Assembly (NCBI GenBank): GCA_023954745.1 | Contig: JAGSHC010000026.1 | Location: forward strand, 1 to 39,840 | Reading direction: 5' to 3' | From: Deltaproteobacteria bacterium | GTDB taxonomy: Bacteria; Myxococcota_A; UBA796; UBA9615 | DNA: 39,840 nucleotides | Shown: in pieces, positions 7,978 to 22,328 of the stretch | Position numbering within the stretch: position 1 is the stretch's first letter | How the letters are laid out: the number at the start of each line of letters is the position of its first letter | Made by a program: the position numbers and the translations under genes | Notes under the pieces: model-generated | Told to the model about the DNA's origin: nothing | Database searches by the model: none | Seen by the model: only the letters and a program-made list of their open reading frames with translations

Positions 7978-8619
7978 TCATGCGGCCCACGCCGCGCGCG
8001 ACGCGGACGGCAACTGCGCGAGCCAGGGCTCAGGGTCCACGTCGCCGCGCACCGATGCGTTCAGCTTCGTGGCCAGCGGGTACTGGTCCCACCTCGGCCC
8101 AAGCTCCTGTTCGAGCTGGGAGACGAAGGCCTTCTTGCGGCGCAGTCGGTACTTCTGGTGGTAGTCCTCGGCGTCCCAGAAGCGGGCATCGGGGCGGTCC
8201 CACCGCACCACTCCATCGCGGACCGATGGGCTCTTGCGCCCCATGAGTCGCTCGATCACCTCGAGCTGCTCGACGTCCTGCGGGAACAACGCGGTGCGGT
8301 ACTGCCCGTACCCACCGAGGGGTCGACCGCTCAACGAGAACGGACCCATCAGCTCCTCGAAGCTCACCACGTCGGGGTCGTAGATCACGCGGAACGCCTC
8401 GGCGTGCCCACCGATGTTGCGGTAGGTGGGGTTCAGCTCCCGCCCACCGGCGTAGCCGACGCGCGTCTGCACCACTCCTGGGAGACCCCCGAACCGGGAG
8501 TCGGGTCCCCAGAATCAGCCCATGGCGAAGACGGCGGCCCGCAGGTCCCCTTGCCGGAGGGCTTTGGCGACGTCGTCACCGGAGGTGAGGGTGCTCGTCC
8601 ATCGGCTGGGGTGCGTCAT
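7978..8619 (-). CDS. msrA: Peptide methionine sulphoxide reductase A, probable selenoprotein (Sec at in-frame UGA 8517-8515)
   Basis: The 213-residue product reduces methionine-S-sulphoxide in proteins. The start is ATG 8619, preceded by GAGGAGG at proper distance. Codon 35 is TGA exactly where the catalytic Cys of the universal GCFWG motif belongs: AVFAMG-UGA-FWGPDSRFGG. Reading continues in frame through VVQTRVGYAGG, NIGGHAEAFRVIYDP, the aromatic AEDYHQKY segment and a charged C-terminus. Truncated annotations would start at GTG 8475 and lose the active site. No Cys occurs anywhere in the product, so selenocysteine is the only possible redox residue and there is no resolving Cys. Selenocysteine MsrA is known in some bacteria and algae. 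It lies 34 bases behind the AlgJ-like gene, on the same strand. The second TGA at 7978-7980 is discussed separately. Confidence 0.85.
8480..8514 (-). promoter_or_regulatory. SECIS-like hairpin directly downstream of the MsrA UGA
   Basis: Starting five bases after the UGA, 8509-8506 (GGGA) pairs with 8483-8480 (UCCC). After a CCC bulge (8505-8503), 8502-8495 pairs with 8491-8484 over eight base pairs including one G-U, closing a GUU loop at 8494-8492. The loop begins 20 bases after the UGA and starts with G, which meets the general bacterial SECIS pattern (apical loop roughly 16-37 bases from the UGA, a G in the first two loop positions). Confidence 0.6.
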
Positions 8620-8653
8620 CGCGTCCTCCTCGGAGCCTCATCGCGCAGCGCAA

Positions 8654-9748
8654 TCAGGGGACAGAGAGACTAGGCCGGTCGGGAGGAGTTGCAAGGCGAG
8701 CGGACAGCGCCTCGGCCGCGAGTCCCACCGCGTGGGGGGTCCAGTGGGAGTCATCGCGGCGGTAGAGGTAGGGGGTGGAGTTCGCCGCGTACAGCGCCCG
8801 CAGGTCCACCACCTCGATGCCGGCGTCCGCGGCGGACCGCGTCAGGGCGTCGAAGAAGCCCAGCCCATCACAGACCGCTTCCTCCTCCGCCGAGAGCAGC
8901 TCCGGATAGACCTGCACGGGGTCCGGGACCGGCATGAACACGAAGCCCACCCCCTGCTGAGCGAGGGCGTCCCGGAAGGTCACCAGGCTAGCGACGACCT
9001 CGGCGAGAGCACGCTCTTCGGCGCCCTTGTCGCACAACTGAGCCTCGGCGGGCATCACCAGCGCCGGGGCACCCTGCACATCGCGCACTTCGGGGTGCCC
9101 GCGCAGGCGGTAGCTGACGTCGGCGTACCAGGACCGGACGCGGCGACTGATCCCGTTGTCCCGCTCGACGCTGGCGATGACGTCACGGATGCGTTCGGCT
9201 GTGGGCACCGGCTTCGGCTGGGCCTGGAGCGCGCGCCAGTCCACCGAGAAGAGGCCGAAGGGCTGCACGTTCCGGTTGCTGGGCGCAAACACCACCGCGC
9301 GGGGTGGCGTCTTGGCGAAGCGGGGCTCGGACAGATAGAGGGAGGGAGAGTTGGGGGTCTGACACGCCACGCTGTAGGTGGTCTCCCCCAGGGCTTGGCC
9401 CAGCTGGACCGCGAGGGTCTCGTCATCCCGCAGGCTGCTGCCGGCCACGTAGCTGTCGCCCAGGACCACCACCGACGGGGCCTCGATGCCCGGCAGGTTG
9501 CGGAAGCCCGCGGAGTCCGTCGTGAACGTGGTCTCCCGCCCCTCGTCGAGGGCGCGCAGCGCGTTGCGGTAGGCGAGGTCCCCCATCTCCCGCATGGCGA
9601 TGCGCTGGTCCGGGACGAAGCACATGCCGTCCTTCACCTTCACCTTCTCCCACGGCCGGAACTCCGGCTCGCCGACATCGGCCGCCCACGCCGCCAGAGC
9701 GAGGTAGACCACGCCGAAGGCGAGGGCGAAGCGTTGAGGAGTCAGCAT
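8654..9748 (-). CDS. AlgJ/AlgX-like SGNH-family O-acetyltransferase-associated protein
   Basis: A 364-residue protein with an N-terminal membrane anchor/signal (MLTPQRFALAFGVVYLALAAWA) and an extracytoplasmic SGNH-like domain: VVVLGDSYVAGSSL (block I Ser, about residue 110) and, near the C-terminus, RRDDSHWTPHAVGLAAEAL (Asp/His pair). These are the Ser-His-Asp elements of the AlgJ/AlgX/DltD group, which transfer acyl groups to exported polysaccharides or cell-wall polymers. It begins 16 bases after the stop of the MBOAT gene, the standard partner that passes the acyl group across the membrane. Acceptor polymer unknown; no polysaccharide synthase is in the window. Confidence 0.8.
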   Translation of the reverse strand: MLTPQRFALAFGVVYLALAAWAADVGEPEFRPWEKVKVKDGMCFVPDQRIAMREMGDLAYRNALRALDEGRETTFTTDSAGFRNLPGIEAPSVVVLGDSYVAGSSLRDDETLAVQLGQALGETTYSVACQTPNSPSLYLSEPRFAKTPPRAVVFAPSNRNVQPFGLFSVDWRALQAQPKPVPTAERIRDVIASVERDNGISRRVRSWYADVSYRLRGHPEVRDVQGAPALVMPAEAQLCDKGAEERALAEVVASLVTFRDALAQQGVGFVFMPVPDPVQVYPELLSAEEEAVCDGLGFFDALTRSAADAGIEVVDLRALYAANSTPYLYRRDDSHWTPHAVGLAAEALSARLATPPDRPSLSVP

Positions 9749-9764
9749 CGGGTGGTCTCTGCCA

Positions 9765-11129
9765 TCAGAAGCGGAAGTACAGGAAGGGGGGAGCCTCGAG
9801 GCGGCCGTGGGCCACGAACAAGGACAAGACGAAGAGGAAGACGATGACGAGGAGGAGCCGGGGGCGCGGGGTGGTGTCCCAGAGGTGGCTCGGCGTGGGG
9901 AGGTGGAAGAGCGCGAGCGCGGCCGCCACCGAGCCCGCCACCAGCGGGGTGATCGACCCCACACCGTGGCCGAACACCATGGCGGTCAACCACCGCGTCG
10001 CCACCGTCATGTCGTTGAAGTGAAAGGGAACCCAGAGCGCAGTGACGAGCAAGAACGTCACGGCGGTCTGGCCCACCGCGGGGAGGCGGAGGATGGGATT
10101 GCGCTCCCCCAGGGCCCGCTCCGCGGCGAGCAGCAGCCCGTGTCCCGCTCCCCAGACCACGAAGGCCCACGAGGCGCCGTGCCACAGACCGCCGAGCAGC
10201 ATGGTGATGGTGAGGTTCACGTAGGTGCGCAGGGGACCCCGCCGGCTCCCCCCGAGGGGGATGTAGAGGTAGTCGCGCAGCCAGCTCGACAGCGTGATGT
10301 GCCACCGGCGCCAGAAGTCGGAGAAGGTCCTGGCGCGGTACGGCGCGTTGAAGTTGTTGGGGAACGAGAAGCCGAGGAACAGCCCCAGCCCCACCGCCAT
10401 GTCGCTGTAGCCGGAGAAGTCGAAGTAGATCTGGCCGCTGTAGAACACCATGCCGGCCCAGGCGTCCAGGAAGCCCGGTTGTTCCACGGCGAACAGGGGC
10501 TTCGCCAGGAGAGCCAGCGTGTCGGCGAGCAGGATCTTCTTCGCCAGCCCGACCATGAAGAGGGTGAGACCTCGCACCACGTCGGCGCTGCGCACCGTGC
10601 GGTCCACGAGCTGGGGCGCCACGTCCCGAAACCGCACGATGGGCCCCGCCACGAGCTGCGGGAACAGGGCCACGAACGCCGCGAAGTCCACCGGGGACTG
10701 GGCCGGCTCCACGTCCCCCCGATACACGTCGATGGTGTAGCTCATGGACTGGAACGTGAAGAACGAGATACCCAGGGGCAGCGCCGCCTCCAACAGCGGC
10801 ACCTCGGGTCCGAGGAGGTCGCGCAGGCTCAGGGAGATGAGCCCCACGTACTTGTAGAAGGCCAGCAGCCCCAGGTTCGTGGTGAGGGACGCGATGAGCC
10901 AGGCGCGCCGGGTGGCGGGGTCATCCGAGCGCCCGATCTGGCGTCCTGCGGAGTAGTCGACGACGACCGACAGCAACAGCAGCGGCAGGAACTCGTAGCT
11001 CGAGGTCGCGTAGAAGATGAGGCTTGCGGCGAGCAGAGCAGCGTTCCGGACCCGAGGCGGCAGCAGCTGGTGCAGGACCAGCGTGAGCGGCAGGAACACG
11101 AAGAGGAAGCTGACCTGAAAGAAGAGCAA
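9765..11129 (-). CDS. MBOAT-family membrane O-acyltransferase (AlgI-like)
   Basis: A 454-residue polytopic membrane protein. Family marks are FFTFQSMSYTIDVYRG, the FDFSGYSDMAVGLGLFLG helix, WRRWHITLSSWLRDYLYIPL, and the catalytic-His segment GGLWHGASWAFVVWG. It is likely to move acetyl or another acyl group from a cytoplasmic donor across the membrane to the AlgJ-like partner encoded immediately downstream. The TTG at 11129 is chosen because MLFFQVSFLFVFLPL matches the usual AlgI N-terminus and a stop lies a few codons upstream; there is no better start. It lies 21 bases after the DTW gene on the same strand. Confidence 0.87.
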   Translation of the reverse strand: MLFFQVSFLFVFLPLTLVLHQLLPPRVRNAALLAASLIFYATSSYEFLPLLLLSVVVDYSAGRQIGRSDDPATRRAWLIASLTTNLGLLAFYKYVGLISLSLRDLLGPEVPLLEAALPLGISFFTFQSMSYTIDVYRGDVEPAQSPVDFAAFVALFPQLVAGPIVRFRDVAPQLVDRTVRSADVVRGLTLFMVGLAKKILLADTLALLAKPLFAVEQPGFLDAWAGMVFYSGQIYFDFSGYSDMAVGLGLFLGFSFPNNFNAPYRARTFSDFWRRWHITLSSWLRDYLYIPLGGSRRGPLRTYVNLTITMLLGGLWHGASWAFVVWGAGHGLLLAAERALGERNPILRLPAVGQTAVTFLLVTALWVPFHFNDMTVATRWLTAMVFGHGVGSITPLVAGSVAAALALFHLPTPSHLWDTTPRPRLLLVIVFLFVLSLFVAHGRLEAPPFLYFRF

Positions 11130-15919: not shown

Positions 15920-15980
15920 CCGAACCTGAGCGACGCCCGGGGAGATGATGAGCCGCGCAGTGCGCGCGAGGGAGACGAAG

Positions 15981-18900
15981 ATGGGGCCCACCGGCAAGGA
16001 CCGACTCGCAGCGCTGCGCGCGCGCCTTGGGCCCGCGGGCCAGAGCCTCTCCACGGCGGAGCTCCTCGAGTATCTGGGGCTCGCCTCCGCGGGAGAGGTG
16101 AACGAATCCACAGCGGGTGGCAGCGGCGACCCGGATCTCGAGATCAGCGAGTCCCTCGAAGCGGCCACCGGCGACGCTCCCATCCTCGACCGCGTGGCGG
16201 AGGCCTTTGACGGCGGGGCCTTCTCGGACGACTGGGGCGAGGTCGAGGAAGCGATCATCGACGCCGCGACCCGCCCCGCGCGCACGATCGCTGACGGCTC
16301 CTTCGTGGACATGCCACCTGCCTTTGGCTGGGTGAACGACGCGCGCGAGCAGGTCGAGCGGGCCATCGCGGCCAGCGGCCGGGTGGAGCTGCACGGAAGC
16401 AGCGCGCCCTACGGCGGCACCGGCTTCGTCGTCGGCGACGGGCTGGTGCTGACCAACCGCCACGTAGCGAAGCTGTTCGCCAGCGGCTCGGGCCGCAACG
16501 ACATCTTCTTCCGCGCCGGACGCACCTCGGGCTGGGACCCGCGCCGGGAGACGCTGGAGCAGGAGTCCCACGAACTGCAGGTCCGCAAGGTCCTGGCCAT
16601 CCATCCCTATTGGGATGCGGCGCTGCTCCAGGTCGAGGGGTTGCCCCGCGAGATCGAGCCCCTTGCGCTGATGGGGACCGCGCCCGCGAACCTCGAAGGC
16701 CTCGATGTCGTCGTCGTGGGCTACCCCGCCGGGGGCCAGAGCCGAAACTCCAGCGCCGACAAGAAGACCGTCTTCGGCATCACGTTCGACGTGAAGCAGC
16801 TCATGCCGGGACAGGTGACGGGGTTCCAGTGGACGCCCAAGTCGCGCCGGAAGCGGGTCCATGCCCTCGCTCACGACGCCTCCACCCTGGGAGGGAACTC
16901 GGGGTCTGCCGTGTTCGATCCCGTCACGGGACGGGTCGTGGGGCTGCACTTCGCCGGAAAGCAGAAGCTCACCAACTGGGCGGTGCCCGCGTGGGAGCTC
17001 GCCCGCGACATCGCGGTGCGCGACCTCAAGGTGTTCTTCCACAATCCAGGTCCGCCCGATGACCCGCGCGCCGAGGACTGGCTCGCCGCAGACCCCGTGC
17101 CCCAGGAAACCAGGGTCATCCCCCGGGTGCCCCCGCCGGCCGCTCCCGCCCCGGCCGCGACTGCAGGTCCCCTCGGCGCGTTGGAGCAGCAAGGCCGCAG
17201 CCGCTACGGACGGTACGCAGGGCCGTGGCTCGACGCGGTGCGCGCGCTCCAGGCGAGCGGGCAGGAGCTCGCGGAGTCCGCCGGGCAGGGAGACGCGCCT
17301 CCCGACGACCTGGCCTCGGCCATCGAGGCGGTGCGCAACGAGCTGGAGCGCCCCGGCGCAGGTCGGCGAGACCCCTACGCGCCTGAGATCGTGCTGCTGC
17401 CCGGCATCATGGGGACCGCCCTCGGACGACCGTCCGGACTCTTCTCTCGGTTGTGGTTGGCTCCGGGACAGTTCCTCGCCGGCAGCCTGGCTGAGCGGCT
17501 CTCCCTCGCCGCCGACGGCCTCCGAGACAAGGTGGAGCAAGGTGGGATCGTCCCCCTGCAGCCCATCGACGCGCTCTACGGCGTCCCGGCGCTGGCCTGG
17601 TGGGCCCGCGGCTTCCGCGTGCACATGATGGGCTACGACTGGCGAAAGCCCCTGGCCGTCGCGGCCAAGCGTCTCTTTCACCGCCTCGGTGAGCTCGCCA
17701 CGGACCGGCCCCATGTGCGCTTCGTCCTGGTGGGCCACTCCATGGGCGGCCTCGTCGCCTCGGTGTTCGCCCACCAGCACCCCGACGCCTACGCAGACCT
17801 CGTCGAGCGGACCATCACCCTCGGCTCGCCCCTGGGGGGCTCGTTTGCAGTGCCCGAGACGCTCTCGGGTGAGTCCCACCTCATGAGGCGCCTCGCGCGC
17901 GCGGTTCCCACCGACAAGGTGGGGGACTTTCGACGCATGGCGAGCACGTTCCCAGGCCTGCTGGCGATGCTGCCCTCCCCCGAAGTCTTCGCAGACGCCA
18001 CCCATGCTCAAGGCGGCGCCGTCGAGTCGCTCTATCGCCGCGCGACGTGGGAGCCGGAGTTCGCGCCATCGGTCCGGTGGCTCGAAGAGTCCCTCCGCCT
18101 CAAGAAGGTGCTGCGCACAGCGCTCGTGCACGCGGGGCGCCCGGTCACCAATCTCGTGGGCACCCACTTGCCCACCCAGGCGTCCGTCGATCTGCGCGGC
18201 TATCCGACCCGTGGGGAGTGGATGGAGACCGGCGACGGCACGGTGCCTTCTCGCTCGGCCCAGGTCCCCGGCGCGGAAGTCCTCAGCATCCGGGCCGCTC
18301 ACCACCTCATCCCCGTGCACCCGAAAGCCATCGCCGCCGTCGCGCACCTCATCCGCACCGGCCGCTGCGAGCTGAGCGCGCCGACCGACATCGGCGAGCC
18401 CATGGAGGAGTCCGTCGAGACCCGCGAGTCCCTCGCCGGCGACGAGAGCTCCGCCGTGCATCTGCGCTCCAAGGTCGAGCGCGGCGCAGAGCTCGGCCTG
18501 GAAGAGTGGGCCTGGCTCCTCGAAGGGGTCCCCCCCACGATGGCCGCCGGCGCGGCCGAATCCGTGGCCAGACCGGCCACTCCCCCCAGTCCAGACCTGA
18601 GCGTGGAGCTGCTGCGGCGATTGGACTTGCGCCCCAAGACCCCAACGACGCGGCCCGTCTCCACTCCGCCGAAGCGACCCCGGGGGTTCCCCGGAGGGGT
18701 CCTGCTTCGATGGGCTCCGGTCGACGCCGGTGAGCACGCGTGGATCGCCGCCCCGACCTCCGAGGATCAGCTGCTCGACACAGTGAACTGGGCCGCCGGC
18801 AGAGGGTGGCGACTCCGGCCCTGGGACGGCGACGCCACCGGCTCGGCCTTTGGCTGGCCCGACCACGCGGCCCCCGAGCGAATGGCCATGCTCGACCTCA

Positions 18901-21900
18901 GCCATCTCCCCTCGGAGCGGGCTCTGGACACCGCCGCGGGGCAACCGGTGGTCACCGCGTCCACGGGACAATCGGTGGACGAGCTGCTCGGCTGGCTCGA
19001 AGAGCAGGGCGACACGGACGGGTACTCCCTCACGAGCGTGCCCGCGTCGGGGCGTCTCTCGGTAGGCACGGCCATCGCCTACGGCTCCGCAGGCACAGGG
19101 ACGGGCGAAGGCGAGTCCGGCTCCCACGGGACAATGGGCAACCTCGTCGTCCGCTTCCGGGCGGTGGTGAGAGCCCCCGGGAACCCCCGGTACACCGTGC
19201 AGGAGTTCACCCGGGAGCACGTCGACGCCCCGGCGTTCCTCCTGCACCTGGGTCGCGCACTGATCGTCTCGGTGTCGCTTCGGGTGGTGCCGAACTACTG
19301 GCTGGAGGTCCGCAACCTCTACCCTGAAGCCGAAGCGCTCTTCGCCGCCGAGGCAGGGGAGACCTCGCTCTCCTCCCTGCTGGACACCACCGCGCGCGTC
19401 GACGTGCGTTGGTACCCGGGCACGACGCGACCTTGGGTTCGGACGTGGGCCCGCATCGCCGAGCGCGCTCTGGGCCGGACCCGGCGCCCCTACGCGTACC
19501 GCTCGAGCCAGGACGTCACTCCGTGGGCGGAGTCCGCGCTTCGGGACCACGCCGCCCAGGGCACCAGCACGTCCGTCACCGAGAGCCAACTCGACCTGAC
19601 CCGCGCCATGGAGCCCGAGGACCTGGTGCGCCACGGCCTGAGCAAGAACCTCCTCCTTCGAGACGGCCAGGTCACGGTCCACACGGAGCGGCACGGGCTG
19701 GTGGTGCTCTGCCCCCGGTCCGAGGTCCAGGCCGTCGTGCACGCGATCACGGCGCAGTACTCGGCCCAACTGGCCAGCTTCGCCGCCGACCACGGCGCGC
19801 ACCCCATGAACGGCCCCCTCACCCTCGGCGTGACGGGCCTCGACGAGCCGGCGGATCTCGGTGGGTCCGATGCCCGGCCTCCTGCCCTGTCCCCAGTGCG
19901 CCCGATCCCCGACGCCCCCGAGGTGGACACCGCCGTCTGGGTGAGGGCGGACTCCGTGGGGGGGACGCCCTATCAGGACGCCTTCCTCGCCGAGCTCGAG
20001 ACCTTCGCATGGACCACCTTCCCCGGCCGCGTGCGTCCCGACTGGAGCGGACTCTTCGCCGTCGACAGCGACGAGGGACCGTGGGGACACGGCGGTCGAC
20101 TCAACCGGGACATCCTCACCGCGTACCCCCAGAACGACGCTGGCATGGGCCTGCGGCAGGTGGGCCAGGCCTTGGCCGGGTGGGACGAGGACGGCGTCTT
20201 CGCGGCTCCCCTGCATCAGCGGCTCTTTGGCGGAGGCCGCAAGCGCACGGTCTCCCAACTCTTCCTGGGAGACGAGGTGTCCGAGGAGTTCATCGAAGGC
20301 GTCAACCCGAAGGACCAGCTCGCCGCCGACCTCGAGTACCTTCGAGCCGGCCCCACCGAGGGCGAGGACCCCTCGGTACGCATCGCGGGAATGGCCTCCT
20401 GGGCCGAGTCCCTCTCCGACGATGACTACGACGAGGCCGTCGCCGCCCTGCGCCGAGAGGTGGGAGCGCAGGACCCATCCGAAGAGCCCGACGAGACGGA
20501 AGAGGGCATCCACATCGGCGGCGCGGATGTGCGGAACCCCCTCACCGTGGCCCGCGTGCGCAAAGAAGTGCGCGCCCTCGACGACTCCGGCTGCCTCGCC
20601 TGGACCCTCCAGGTCGGTGCAGCGGCTCCTCACGACTTCCTCGCGGACGGAGCGAGCGGACGCAGGACGATGAACGACATCGTGGTGGCCGAGGCCCGCG
20701 CGCGCCGTCGCTTCTCCCGCGTCCAGCCGGCGCCGGGGTCCTGGTACCCCTACATCGGCGCAGATGGCGCGGACCGGCACCTCGAGGAGCCGCCGGACTA
20801 CCAGCACCAGCTGCCCACCAGCCTCAGCGACCTCCTCGCGTTGCTCGTGGACTCCGCCGAGTCCGGTGGCGTGCGGGTCACGGGGGGCTCCCACTCCTCC
20901 AGCGACGTCGCACGACCCGATGCCGGGCGCCCGCGCATCGAGCTGCACCAGCTGCCTGACCGCAGCATCGCCTTGCCAGGCAGGGGCTGGAGCCCCGAAG
21001 ACCGGCACTTCCAGTCGCGAGACACCCTCGCGGTGCGCATTCCGGGCTGGTGGAAGGTGTTCGACGCGGTCCGCACCCTCGACACCATCCACGGCGCGGA
21101 GCCCGGGTACGCGCTCGAGAACCTCGGCTCCTACGACCAGCAGACCCTCGTAGGCGCCATGGCGACGGGCACCCACGGCTCGGGCTCAGCGCTGCGCCCC
21201 ATGGCCGACCAGCTGCTGTCCATGGACATCGCCACGGTGCAGAAGGGCGAGGACGGCGCCCCTCGGGGAACCGTCTTCCGGGTGGAGCGGGCGGACGGCC
21301 CCACCGACAAGGACGCCTTCGAGACCTGGATGCGCGGACGCCCCGCACCTGCGGACTGGCAACTGATCCAAGACGACTCGGTGTTTCAGGCGTGCCAGAT
21401 CGGCGTGGGCTCCCTGGGGGTCATCTTCGCCATCACGGTCAAGGTCGTCCCCCAGTTCCGTCTGCACGAGGTGGCCCGGCGCAAGCTCTTCCAGGACGTC
21501 GGACCCGGGGTCATCGCCGATGCGAGGGAGATCTTCGCGCATGCCGGCGCGGAGCCCCACAAAGAGCCCCGCCTCGACCTGCTGGTGAACCCCTACACAG
21601 GCCACGACGGCAAGCAGGTGTGCCAGAGCACGCGGCGCACCTGGCTCGCCTACGACCCAACGAAGCACGGGAAGTACGCGGGGCGGGAGCAGAAGGACCT
21701 GATCAAGCGCGCGAAGCGCAAGGGCCCGAGCTGGTTCGTGCAAACCACCGCCGCGTTCCGGGCCATCGTGGGAGCCGGCGCGTGTCTCGATGTGGCGCTG
21801 GAGCTGAATCAGGGGCCCAAGGCCGGCTGGGACAGCATCAGCTACCAGGTGCTCAAGCTCGGCCTGGGCAAGTACGTTTCGCCACCGTCTCTGGAGTTCG

Positions 21901-22328
21901 CGTTTCCGGTGGAGCAGACCGAGCGCGCCGTGCAGTCCATGAACGAGCTGGCCGAGGAGGCCCACGCGCGCTCCCCGCGCATCTCGCTCACCTCACCGTT
22001 TGGGGTCCGCTTCGTGCGGAGCAGCAAGGCGTGGCTCGCTCCGGTGTCCGGCTGGAATGGGGACACCTACACGGAGAGCCTCTTCACCATGCTCGAACTG
22101 TCGATGTTCCTCCACGCCCCCGGCGCGGAGTGGGTCTTCGAGCAGGCAGCGCAGCGGCTGTTCGACCTGGGGGGCAGGCCACACTGGGGCCAGCTCAACG
22201 ACCTGGGCCCCAACCAGATGCGCGACCTGTACGGCGACCACGCCGTCGACGAGTTCAAGAAAGCCCGTGCGCTGCTCGACCCCTACGGAGTGTTCGACTC
22301 GCCGTTCACCCGCCGGGTGGGCCTCTAG
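15981..22328 (+). CDS. Giant fusion: trypsin-like protease, LCAT-like lipase, cholesterol-oxidase-like FAD domain and second FAD-linked oxidase
   Basis: A 2115-residue protein (start ATG 15981, AGGGAG six bases upstream; ATGs at 15945/15948 are alternatives). Module 1 (about 110-360): trypsin-like protease with His161 (TNRHVA), Asp212 (YWDAALL), Ser307 (GGNSGSAV). Module 2 (about 465-800): alpha/beta-hydrolase of the lecithin:cholesterol acyltransferase type with LLPGIMGTALG, nucleophile Ser587 (VGHSMGGLV), Asp752 (TGDGTVPS) and His774/775. Module 3 (about 905-1420): FAD-linked oxidase resembling class II cholesterol oxidase, with a substrate-binding half. Module 4 (about 1600-2115): FAD/FMN oxidase with RVTGGSHSSSD and an ALO-like C-terminus. 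No signal peptide or membrane helix is evident. The modules suggest attack on proteins and on membrane lipids or sterols with production of hydrogen peroxide. The frame is intact throughout; function is inferred. Confidence 0.85.
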   Translation: MGPTGKDRLAALRARLGPAGQSLSTAELLEYLGLASAGEVNESTAGGSGDPDLEISESLEAATGDAPILDRVAEAFDGGAFSDDWGEVEEAIIDAATRPARTIADGSFVDMPPAFGWVNDAREQVERAIAASGRVELHGSSAPYGGTGFVVGDGLVLTNRHVAKLFASGSGRNDIFFRAGRTSGWDPRRETLEQESHELQVRKVLAIHPYWDAALLQVEGLPREIEPLALMGTAPANLEGLDVVVVGYPAGGQSRNSSADKKTVFGITFDVKQLMPGQVTGFQWTPKSRRKRVHALAHDASTLGGNSGSAVFDPVTGRVVGLHFAGKQKLTNWAVPAWELARDIAVRDLKVFFHNPGPPDDPRAEDWLAADPVPQETRVIPRVPPPAAPAPAATAGPLGALEQQGRSRYGRYAGPWLDAVRALQASGQELAESAGQGDAPPDDLASAIEAVRNELERPGAGRRDPYAPEIVLLPGIMGTALGRPSGLFSRLWLAPGQFLAGSLAERLSLAADGLRDKVEQGGIVPLQPIDALYGVPALAWWARGFRVHMMGYDWRKPLAVAAKRLFHRLGELATDRPHVRFVLVGHSMGGLVASVFAHQHPDAYADLVERTITLGSPLGGSFAVPETLSGESHLMRRLARAVPTDKVGDFRRMASTFPGLLAMLPSPEVFADATHAQGGAVESLYRRATWEPEFAPSVRWLEESLRLKKVLRTALVHAGRPVTNLVGTHLPTQASVDLRGYPTRGEWMETGDGTVPSRSAQVPGAEVLSIRAAHHLIPVHPKAIAAVAHLIRTGRCELSAPTDIGEPMEESVETRESLAGDESSAVHLRSKVERGAELGLEEWAWLLEGVPPTMAAGAAESVARPATPPSPDLSVELLRRLDLRPKTPTTRPVSTPPKRPRGFPGGVLLRWAPVDAGEHAWIAAPTSEDQLLDTVNWAAGRGWRLRPWDGDATGSAFGWPDHAAPERMAMLDLSHLPSERALDTAAGQPVVTASTGQSVDELLGWLEEQGDTDGYSLTSVPASGRLSVGTAIAYGSAGTGTGEGESGSHGTMGNLVVRFRAVVRAPGNPRYTVQEFTREHVDAPAFLLHLGRALIVSVSLRVVPNYWLEVRNLYPEAEALFAAEAGETSLSSLLDTTARVDVRWYPGTTRPWVRTWARIAERALGRTRRPYAYRSSQDVTPWAESALRDHAAQGTSTSVTESQLDLTRAMEPEDLVRHGLSKNLLLRDGQVTVHTERHGLVVLCPRSEVQAVVHAITAQYSAQLASFAADHGAHPMNGPLTLGVTGLDEPADLGGSDARPPALSPVRPIPDAPEVDTAVWVRADSVGGTPYQDAFLAELETFAWTTFPGRVRPDWSGLFAVDSDEGPWGHGGRLNRDILTAYPQNDAGMGLRQVGQALAGWDEDGVFAAPLHQRLFGGGRKRTVSQLFLGDEVSEEFIEGVNPKDQLAADLEYLRAGPTEGEDPSVRIAGMASWAESLSDDDYDEAVAALRREVGAQDPSEEPDETEEGIHIGGADVRNPLTVARVRKEVRALDDSGCLAWTLQVGAAAPHDFLADGASGRRTMNDIVVAEARARRRFSRVQPAPGSWYPYIGADGADRHLEEPPDYQHQLPTSLSDLLALLVDSAESGGVRVTGGSHSSSDVARPDAGRPRIELHQLPDRSIALPGRGWSPEDRHFQSRDTLAVRIPGWWKVFDAVRTLDTIHGAEPGYALENLGSYDQQTLVGAMATGTHGSGSALRPMADQLLSMDIATVQKGEDGAPRGTVFRVERADGPTDKDAFETWMRGRPAPADWQLIQDDSVFQACQIGVGSLGVIFAITVKVVPQFRLHEVARRKLFQDVGPGVIADAREIFAHAGAEPHKEPRLDLLVNPYTGHDGKQVCQSTRRTWLAYDPTKHGKYAGREQKDLIKRAKRKGPSWFVQTTAAFRAIVGAGACLDVALELNQGPKAGWDSISYQVLKLGLGKYVSPPSLEFAFPVEQTERAVQSMNELAEEAHARSPRISLTSPFGVRFVRSSKAWLAPVSGWNGDTYTESLFTMLELSMFLHAPGAEWVFEQAAQRLFDLGGRPHWGQLNDLGPNQMRDLYGDHAVDEFKKARALLDPYGVFDSPFTRRVGL

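Follow-up and report, generated by a model that had tools for sequence, protein, structure and literature searches.

A predicted selenocysteine-type methionine sulfoxide reductase A behind an in-frame UGA in an apparently myxobacterial genome

Does a UGA codon at the catalytic position of an msrA frame end that frame, or is it read as selenocysteine (Sec)? The question is raised by a locus on the minus strand of a 39,840-nt stretch of DNA (hereafter, the window; contig JAGSHC010000026.1 of assembly GCA_023954745.1), in which a frame of 213 codons plus stop (8619 to 7978) carries TGA at 8517–8515, precisely where the Cys codon of the GCFWG motif is expected. A previous sequence-only reading had proposed a hidden selenoprotein MsrA starting at ATG 8619 behind an AGGAGG, and direct reading showed all of its coordinates to be exact. 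The Shine-Dalgarno sequence lies at 8625–8630, with a spacing of 5 nt to the ATG, the nearest in-frame stop 5' of the start is TGA 8640–8638, and direct reading of the interval between them revealed no alternative ATG, GTG or TTG. When the TGA is read through, it becomes residue 35 of a 213-residue product, and no Cys codon occurs elsewhere in the frame, as had also been claimed. By contrast, a mechanical ORF call retains only the segment from GTG 8475 to 7978, and the active site is lost. The frame closes with a second UGA (7980–7978), in agreement with the C-termini of the two nearest relatives, L024 and L105. On the evidence given below, the gene almost certainly encodes a peptide-methionine (S)-S-oxide reductase (MsrA) of the 1-Cys selenoprotein type, in which the UGA at 8517–8515 is predicted to be read as Sec (GUFWG) by means of a SECIS element and SelB.

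The assignment to the MsrA family was clear. The PMSR profile (PF01625) matched residues 29–164 with 104 bits (cut-off 23.7 bits; E=1.2e-29), covering profile positions 2–150 of 153, so that conserved MsrA sequence does lie on both sides of the UGA. Further, a search of the whole host genome with the same profile recovered the locus independently, with one TGA inside the match. The strict NCBIfam equivalog model TIGR00401 gave 88.4 bits (E=6e-25), and its curated cut-off of 108.1 was not reached by this divergent protein. A pattern describing the UGA context of the family, itself derived from this family, fitted the locus with 0 mismatches, while 0 such matches were expected by chance in the window.

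The closest known structure, by sequence as well as by fold, is the Sec-MsrA of Clostridium oremlandii (CoMsrA; PDB 4LWJ, 4LWK, 4LWL, 4LWM and 4U66). All of the best PDB matches in a phmmer search were this enzyme and its variants, and when the AlphaFold2 model of the window protein (pLDDT 88) was used as query in Foldseek, ranks 1–7 were all occupied by C. oremlandii MsrA, with full-length CoMsrA above all other MsrAs. CoMsrA is a protein of 209 aa that contains a single Sec and lacks Cys, its Sec form is 20-fold more active than the Cys version, its reductant is glutaredoxin rather than thioredoxin, and its C-terminal helical domain is essential (PMC4333827). The window protein shares the catalytic residue within G[U/C]FWG, the lack of Cys, the length of approximately 210 aa and the C-terminal helical domain. 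The latter corresponds to about residues 162–213 (8136–7981), where the phmmer alignment with CoMsrA continues and the model places helices at 163–173, 181–190, 197–200 and 205–212. The active-site residues of CoMsrA also have their counterparts: Tyr47, Glu55, Gln89, Tyr90, His137 and Tyr140 align with Y66, E74, Q106, Y107, H154 and Y157, respectively, and F36 and W37 align with active-site residues as well. The two proteins are approximately 32% identical over the aligned fold; relative to CoMsrA, the window protein is extended at the N-terminus and its loop near residue 100 is shortened, and its host is GC-rich and apparently myxobacterial, whereas CoMsrA comes from the Clostridia.

The conservation of the UGA was then assessed in the 80 best matches to the window MsrA among 84,980 species genomes of a public genome collection. 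TGA occupied the catalytic codon in 79 of these 80 relatives, which span about ten or more phyla; the sole exception, Carnobacterium jeotgali, has TGT. The Sec-MsrA relatives come from Myxococcota, Thermodesulfobacteriota, Nitrospirota, Chloroflexota, Planctomycetota, Acidobacteriota, Synergistota, Calditrichota, Actinomycetota and Rokuibacteriota, as well as from unplaced lineages. In a maximum-likelihood tree, the window protein fell inside the Sec clade, grouping with L024 (Polyangia bacterium Co_bin.371) and L105 (from genome G021) with support of 100/97. Judged by these neighbors, the host probably belongs to Polyangia/Myxococcota. These two relatives have the same UGA, the same hairpin downstream of it and an equally compact C-terminus, yet they differ from the window protein at about half of the amino acids (51% and 49% identity, respectively); neither is annotated in the sources consulted.

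Closer to the host, the distribution is less regular. Of 74 genomes related to the host, three more contained a full-length match with a single TGA and another one a fragment, while the closest sequenced relative, from the same genus (G001), has Cys-MsrA forms only; the Sec gene is absent from it, and Sec-MsrA is thus patchily distributed. All five carriers in this set (one of them with the fragment) have tRNA-Sec, a co-occurrence of little power since 55 of the 74 genomes carry tRNA-Sec anyway.

Insertion of Sec would require a SECIS element downstream of the UGA, and a hairpin with the features of such an element was found on the minus strand at 8502–8484. In the RNA, the order from the catalytic codon is UGA-UUCUGGGGACCC-GACUCCCG-GUU-CGGGGGUC, in which GACUCCCG and CGGGGGUC pair in a stem of 8 bp, the GUU apical loop (8494–8492) starts 20 nt after the UGA, and the folding energy is -18.5 kcal/mol for 39 nt. 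The bacterial SECIS model allows a loop of 3–9 nt, a stem of 4–16 bp, a G in the first two loop positions, a spacing of 16–37 nt and a minimum free energy of -7.5 kcal/mol or lower (PMC13188914); with its loop of 3 nt beginning with G, the window hairpin lies within every one of these limits.

The residues FWGPDSRFG do not vary among 80 UGA-containing sequences, which allowed a direct reading of the synonymous sites underneath. The codons of the stem were frozen (Ser TCC in 80/80, Gly GGG in 77/80, Arg CGG in 75/80 and Phe TTC in 79/80 sequences), while those directly 5' of the stem varied among all four synonyms (Gly 40/15/15/10 and Pro 30/26/17/7). Across the family, the stem was paired in 89.5% of cells vs. 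at most 64.8% when the stem was slid along the alignment, and the folding energy was below that of synonymous recodings, with a mean z of -1.9 and 67 of the 80 sequences below -1. In L038, a member with Cys, the hairpin core was not observed. Taken alone, the window hairpin exceeded synonymous recodings (z -1.7, p 0.05) and shuffles (z -1.1) in stability by a small margin only, because the region is very GC-rich. Compensatory changes were scarce: L107 shows a two-sided change in the stem, from U-A to G-C, L105 a change on the 5' side only, and the related sequences L056, L091 and L094 form the stem in a shifted register with AGG Arg codons. Covariation was therefore rejected as proof of the hairpin, as true double changes are too few in a stem that hardly varies, and the case rests on the constraint on synonymous codons instead. 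In sum, a SECIS-type hairpin under RNA-level constraint downstream of the UGA is supported by its fold, the codon freeze, the pairing in the family and the published model, and one GACUCCCGGUUCGGGAGUC hairpin has been retained across many phyla.

We also examined the host assembly (7.13 Mb in 481 contigs, 100% complete, 0.59% contamination) for the machinery on which a Sec reading depends. A tRNA-Sec gene with a UCA anticodon and a long extra arm was located at C85:4452-4545 (75.5 bits vs. a cut-off of 47), together with SelA (471 bits), SelB (303.7 bits, with the SelB-specific barrel and winged-helix domains) and SelD (339.7 bits). The sequence-only reading had proposed a search for these four components as a check and had named the absence of selB and tRNA-Sec as a refutation; with all four present, it stands on its main point of refutation. 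Host SelD has one in-frame TGA in its N-terminal catalytic segment, STVQCAG-U-ASKLP (locus L017, G000:C52, locus position 1528), and is a selenoprotein gene itself; a second SelD-family match, at C322:10173-11093, has no internal stop. Two ordinary Cys-MsrA genes were also detected (C268:795-1253 and C23:8214-8657), which means that the host has other MsrAs besides the Sec form. They share PF01625 with the window protein and differ from it in having a TGT or TGC codon at the catalytic position, in lacking the SECIS hairpin and in lying outside the Sec clade. Taken together, the Sec machinery, the TGA shared with the relatives and the SECIS-type hairpin strongly support the hidden-selenoprotein reading.

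Could the frame nevertheless be a decaying msrA with a nonsense mutation, of which at most the fragment from GTG 8475 is expressed? Several observations would fit such a pseudogene: the branch of the window MsrA in the tree is long (1.14 changes per column), the genome holds the two intact Cys-MsrA genes, and a remnant of a zinc-finger gene adjoins the frame. Relaxed constraint is a conceivable cause of the long branch, yet every column that is invariant in a 19-row alignment has been kept in the window protein. Further, the frame is otherwise intact over its 213 codons and is preceded by a good ribosome-binding site, the UGA falls exactly on the catalytic codon as it does in 79 other species, and both the hairpin and the host machinery for using it have been retained. 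We consider decay very improbable.

A sequencing or assembly error, with TGC or TGT as the true codon of an ordinary Cys-MsrA, would demand one substitution only, in an assembly broken into 481 contigs. Against this, the TGA recurs in 79 of 80 relatives from independent assemblies, which excludes such an error for practical purposes, so that the sequence-only reading also stands on its second point of refutation; moreover, the freeze of the hairpin codons is confined to members with TGA, and the window protein groups with the Sec-MsrAs, away from the Cys-MsrAs of its own host. Reassignment of UGA throughout the genome to another amino acid (e.g., Trp or Gly), without selenium, would account for an in-frame UGA alone and deserves practically no credence, as UGA is a normal stop at 7980–7978, where the nearest relatives also end, tRNA-Sec, SelA, SelB and SelD are all present, no internal UGA was seen at non-Cys columns of the host families searched apart from Sec sites, and Trp or Gly in the catalytic position would yield a dead enzyme.

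The zinc finger mentioned above bears on the second UGA. Directly after the stop at 7980–7978, the same frame continues for 46 codons (7977–7840) that encode an orphan C4 zinc finger of the DksA/TraR type (7977–7837, minus strand; PF01258, E=2.3e-11), and no start codon precedes it. The closest relatives of the finger are DksA-like proteins that stand alone, several of them in open frames of 133 aa, and they have a long N-terminal coil. An intact dksA-type gene was rejected, as this coil is missing here in all three frames. No SECIS-like fold was found after the UGA at 7980–7978, where the region folded no better than shuffles (z +0.38). Since, in addition, L024 and L105 end nearby without a finger, the segment most likely represents the tail end of a gene that was truncated, probably a dksA-type remnant. 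On the same grounds, Sec insertion at this UGA, or a fusion across it, was rejected as the main reading. An in-frame finger lacking its own start does permit occasional read-through that would yield a Sec-MsrA fused to the C4 finger, a very unlikely arrangement in our estimation; if it did occur, the four Cys of the finger could sense the redox state or recycle the Sec.

Returning to the Sec-MsrA that ends at 7978, its Sec35 is well supported as the sole redox residue of the predicted enzyme, and a plausible course of its synthesis and catalysis can be drawn by analogy with the family. The hairpin at 8502–8484 would bind the C-terminal winged-helix part of SelB at the UGA, and SelB would deliver Sec-tRNA-Sec, made by SerRS, SelA and SelD, so that the codon is decoded as selenocysteine and not as a stop. 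The selenolate of Sec35 would then attack the sulfoxide of methionine-S-sulfoxide, with release of methionine and formation of a selenenic acid. As the protein has no resolving Cys, an external thiol system would be needed to reduce the latter, most likely glutaredoxin/GSH as for the C. oremlandii enzyme; the host has seven matches to the glutaredoxin family, all free of internal stops. The enzyme would act beside the two Cys-MsrAs.

With respect to novelty, reviews of prokaryotic selenoproteins (PMC13188914, PMC9312934) list selenoprotein MsrA with the GUFWG motif, in line with the statement of the sequence-only reading that the type is established in some bacteria, and a description from Syntrophobacter dates from 2006 (PMC1794560). 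A search of the two reviews for Myxococcota gave no mention. The window gene is thus a well-supported addition to a kind of enzyme that was known before from other bacteria: the Sec-MsrA family gains an apparently myxobacterial branch, while the understanding of selenoproteins is unchanged and specialists will regard the case as an ordinary one. The practical consequence concerns annotation, where the automatic procedure cuts the active site out of a predicted redox enzyme, a clear error to fix.

Lastly, the genes around msrA were inspected. Searches with tblastn for the window neighbors at the L024, L105, L025 and other loci gave no match, and a shared neighborhood was rejected. Directly upstream of msrA, on the same strand (8654–11129), lie genes for an AlgX-like SGNH protein and an MBOAT O-acyltransferase, likely a polysaccharide O-acetylation pair. 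On the plus strand, an ORF of 2127 aa (15945–22328) joins trypsin-like protease, LCAT-like hydrolase and FAD/cholesterol-oxidase-like domains. Finally, the segment 23372–29168 encodes an AAA_16 NTPase of 1061 aa, a 353-aa protein that matched nothing in Pfam and a trypsin-like protease with a weak EAD1 domain, a cluster that resembles a conflict/effector system.
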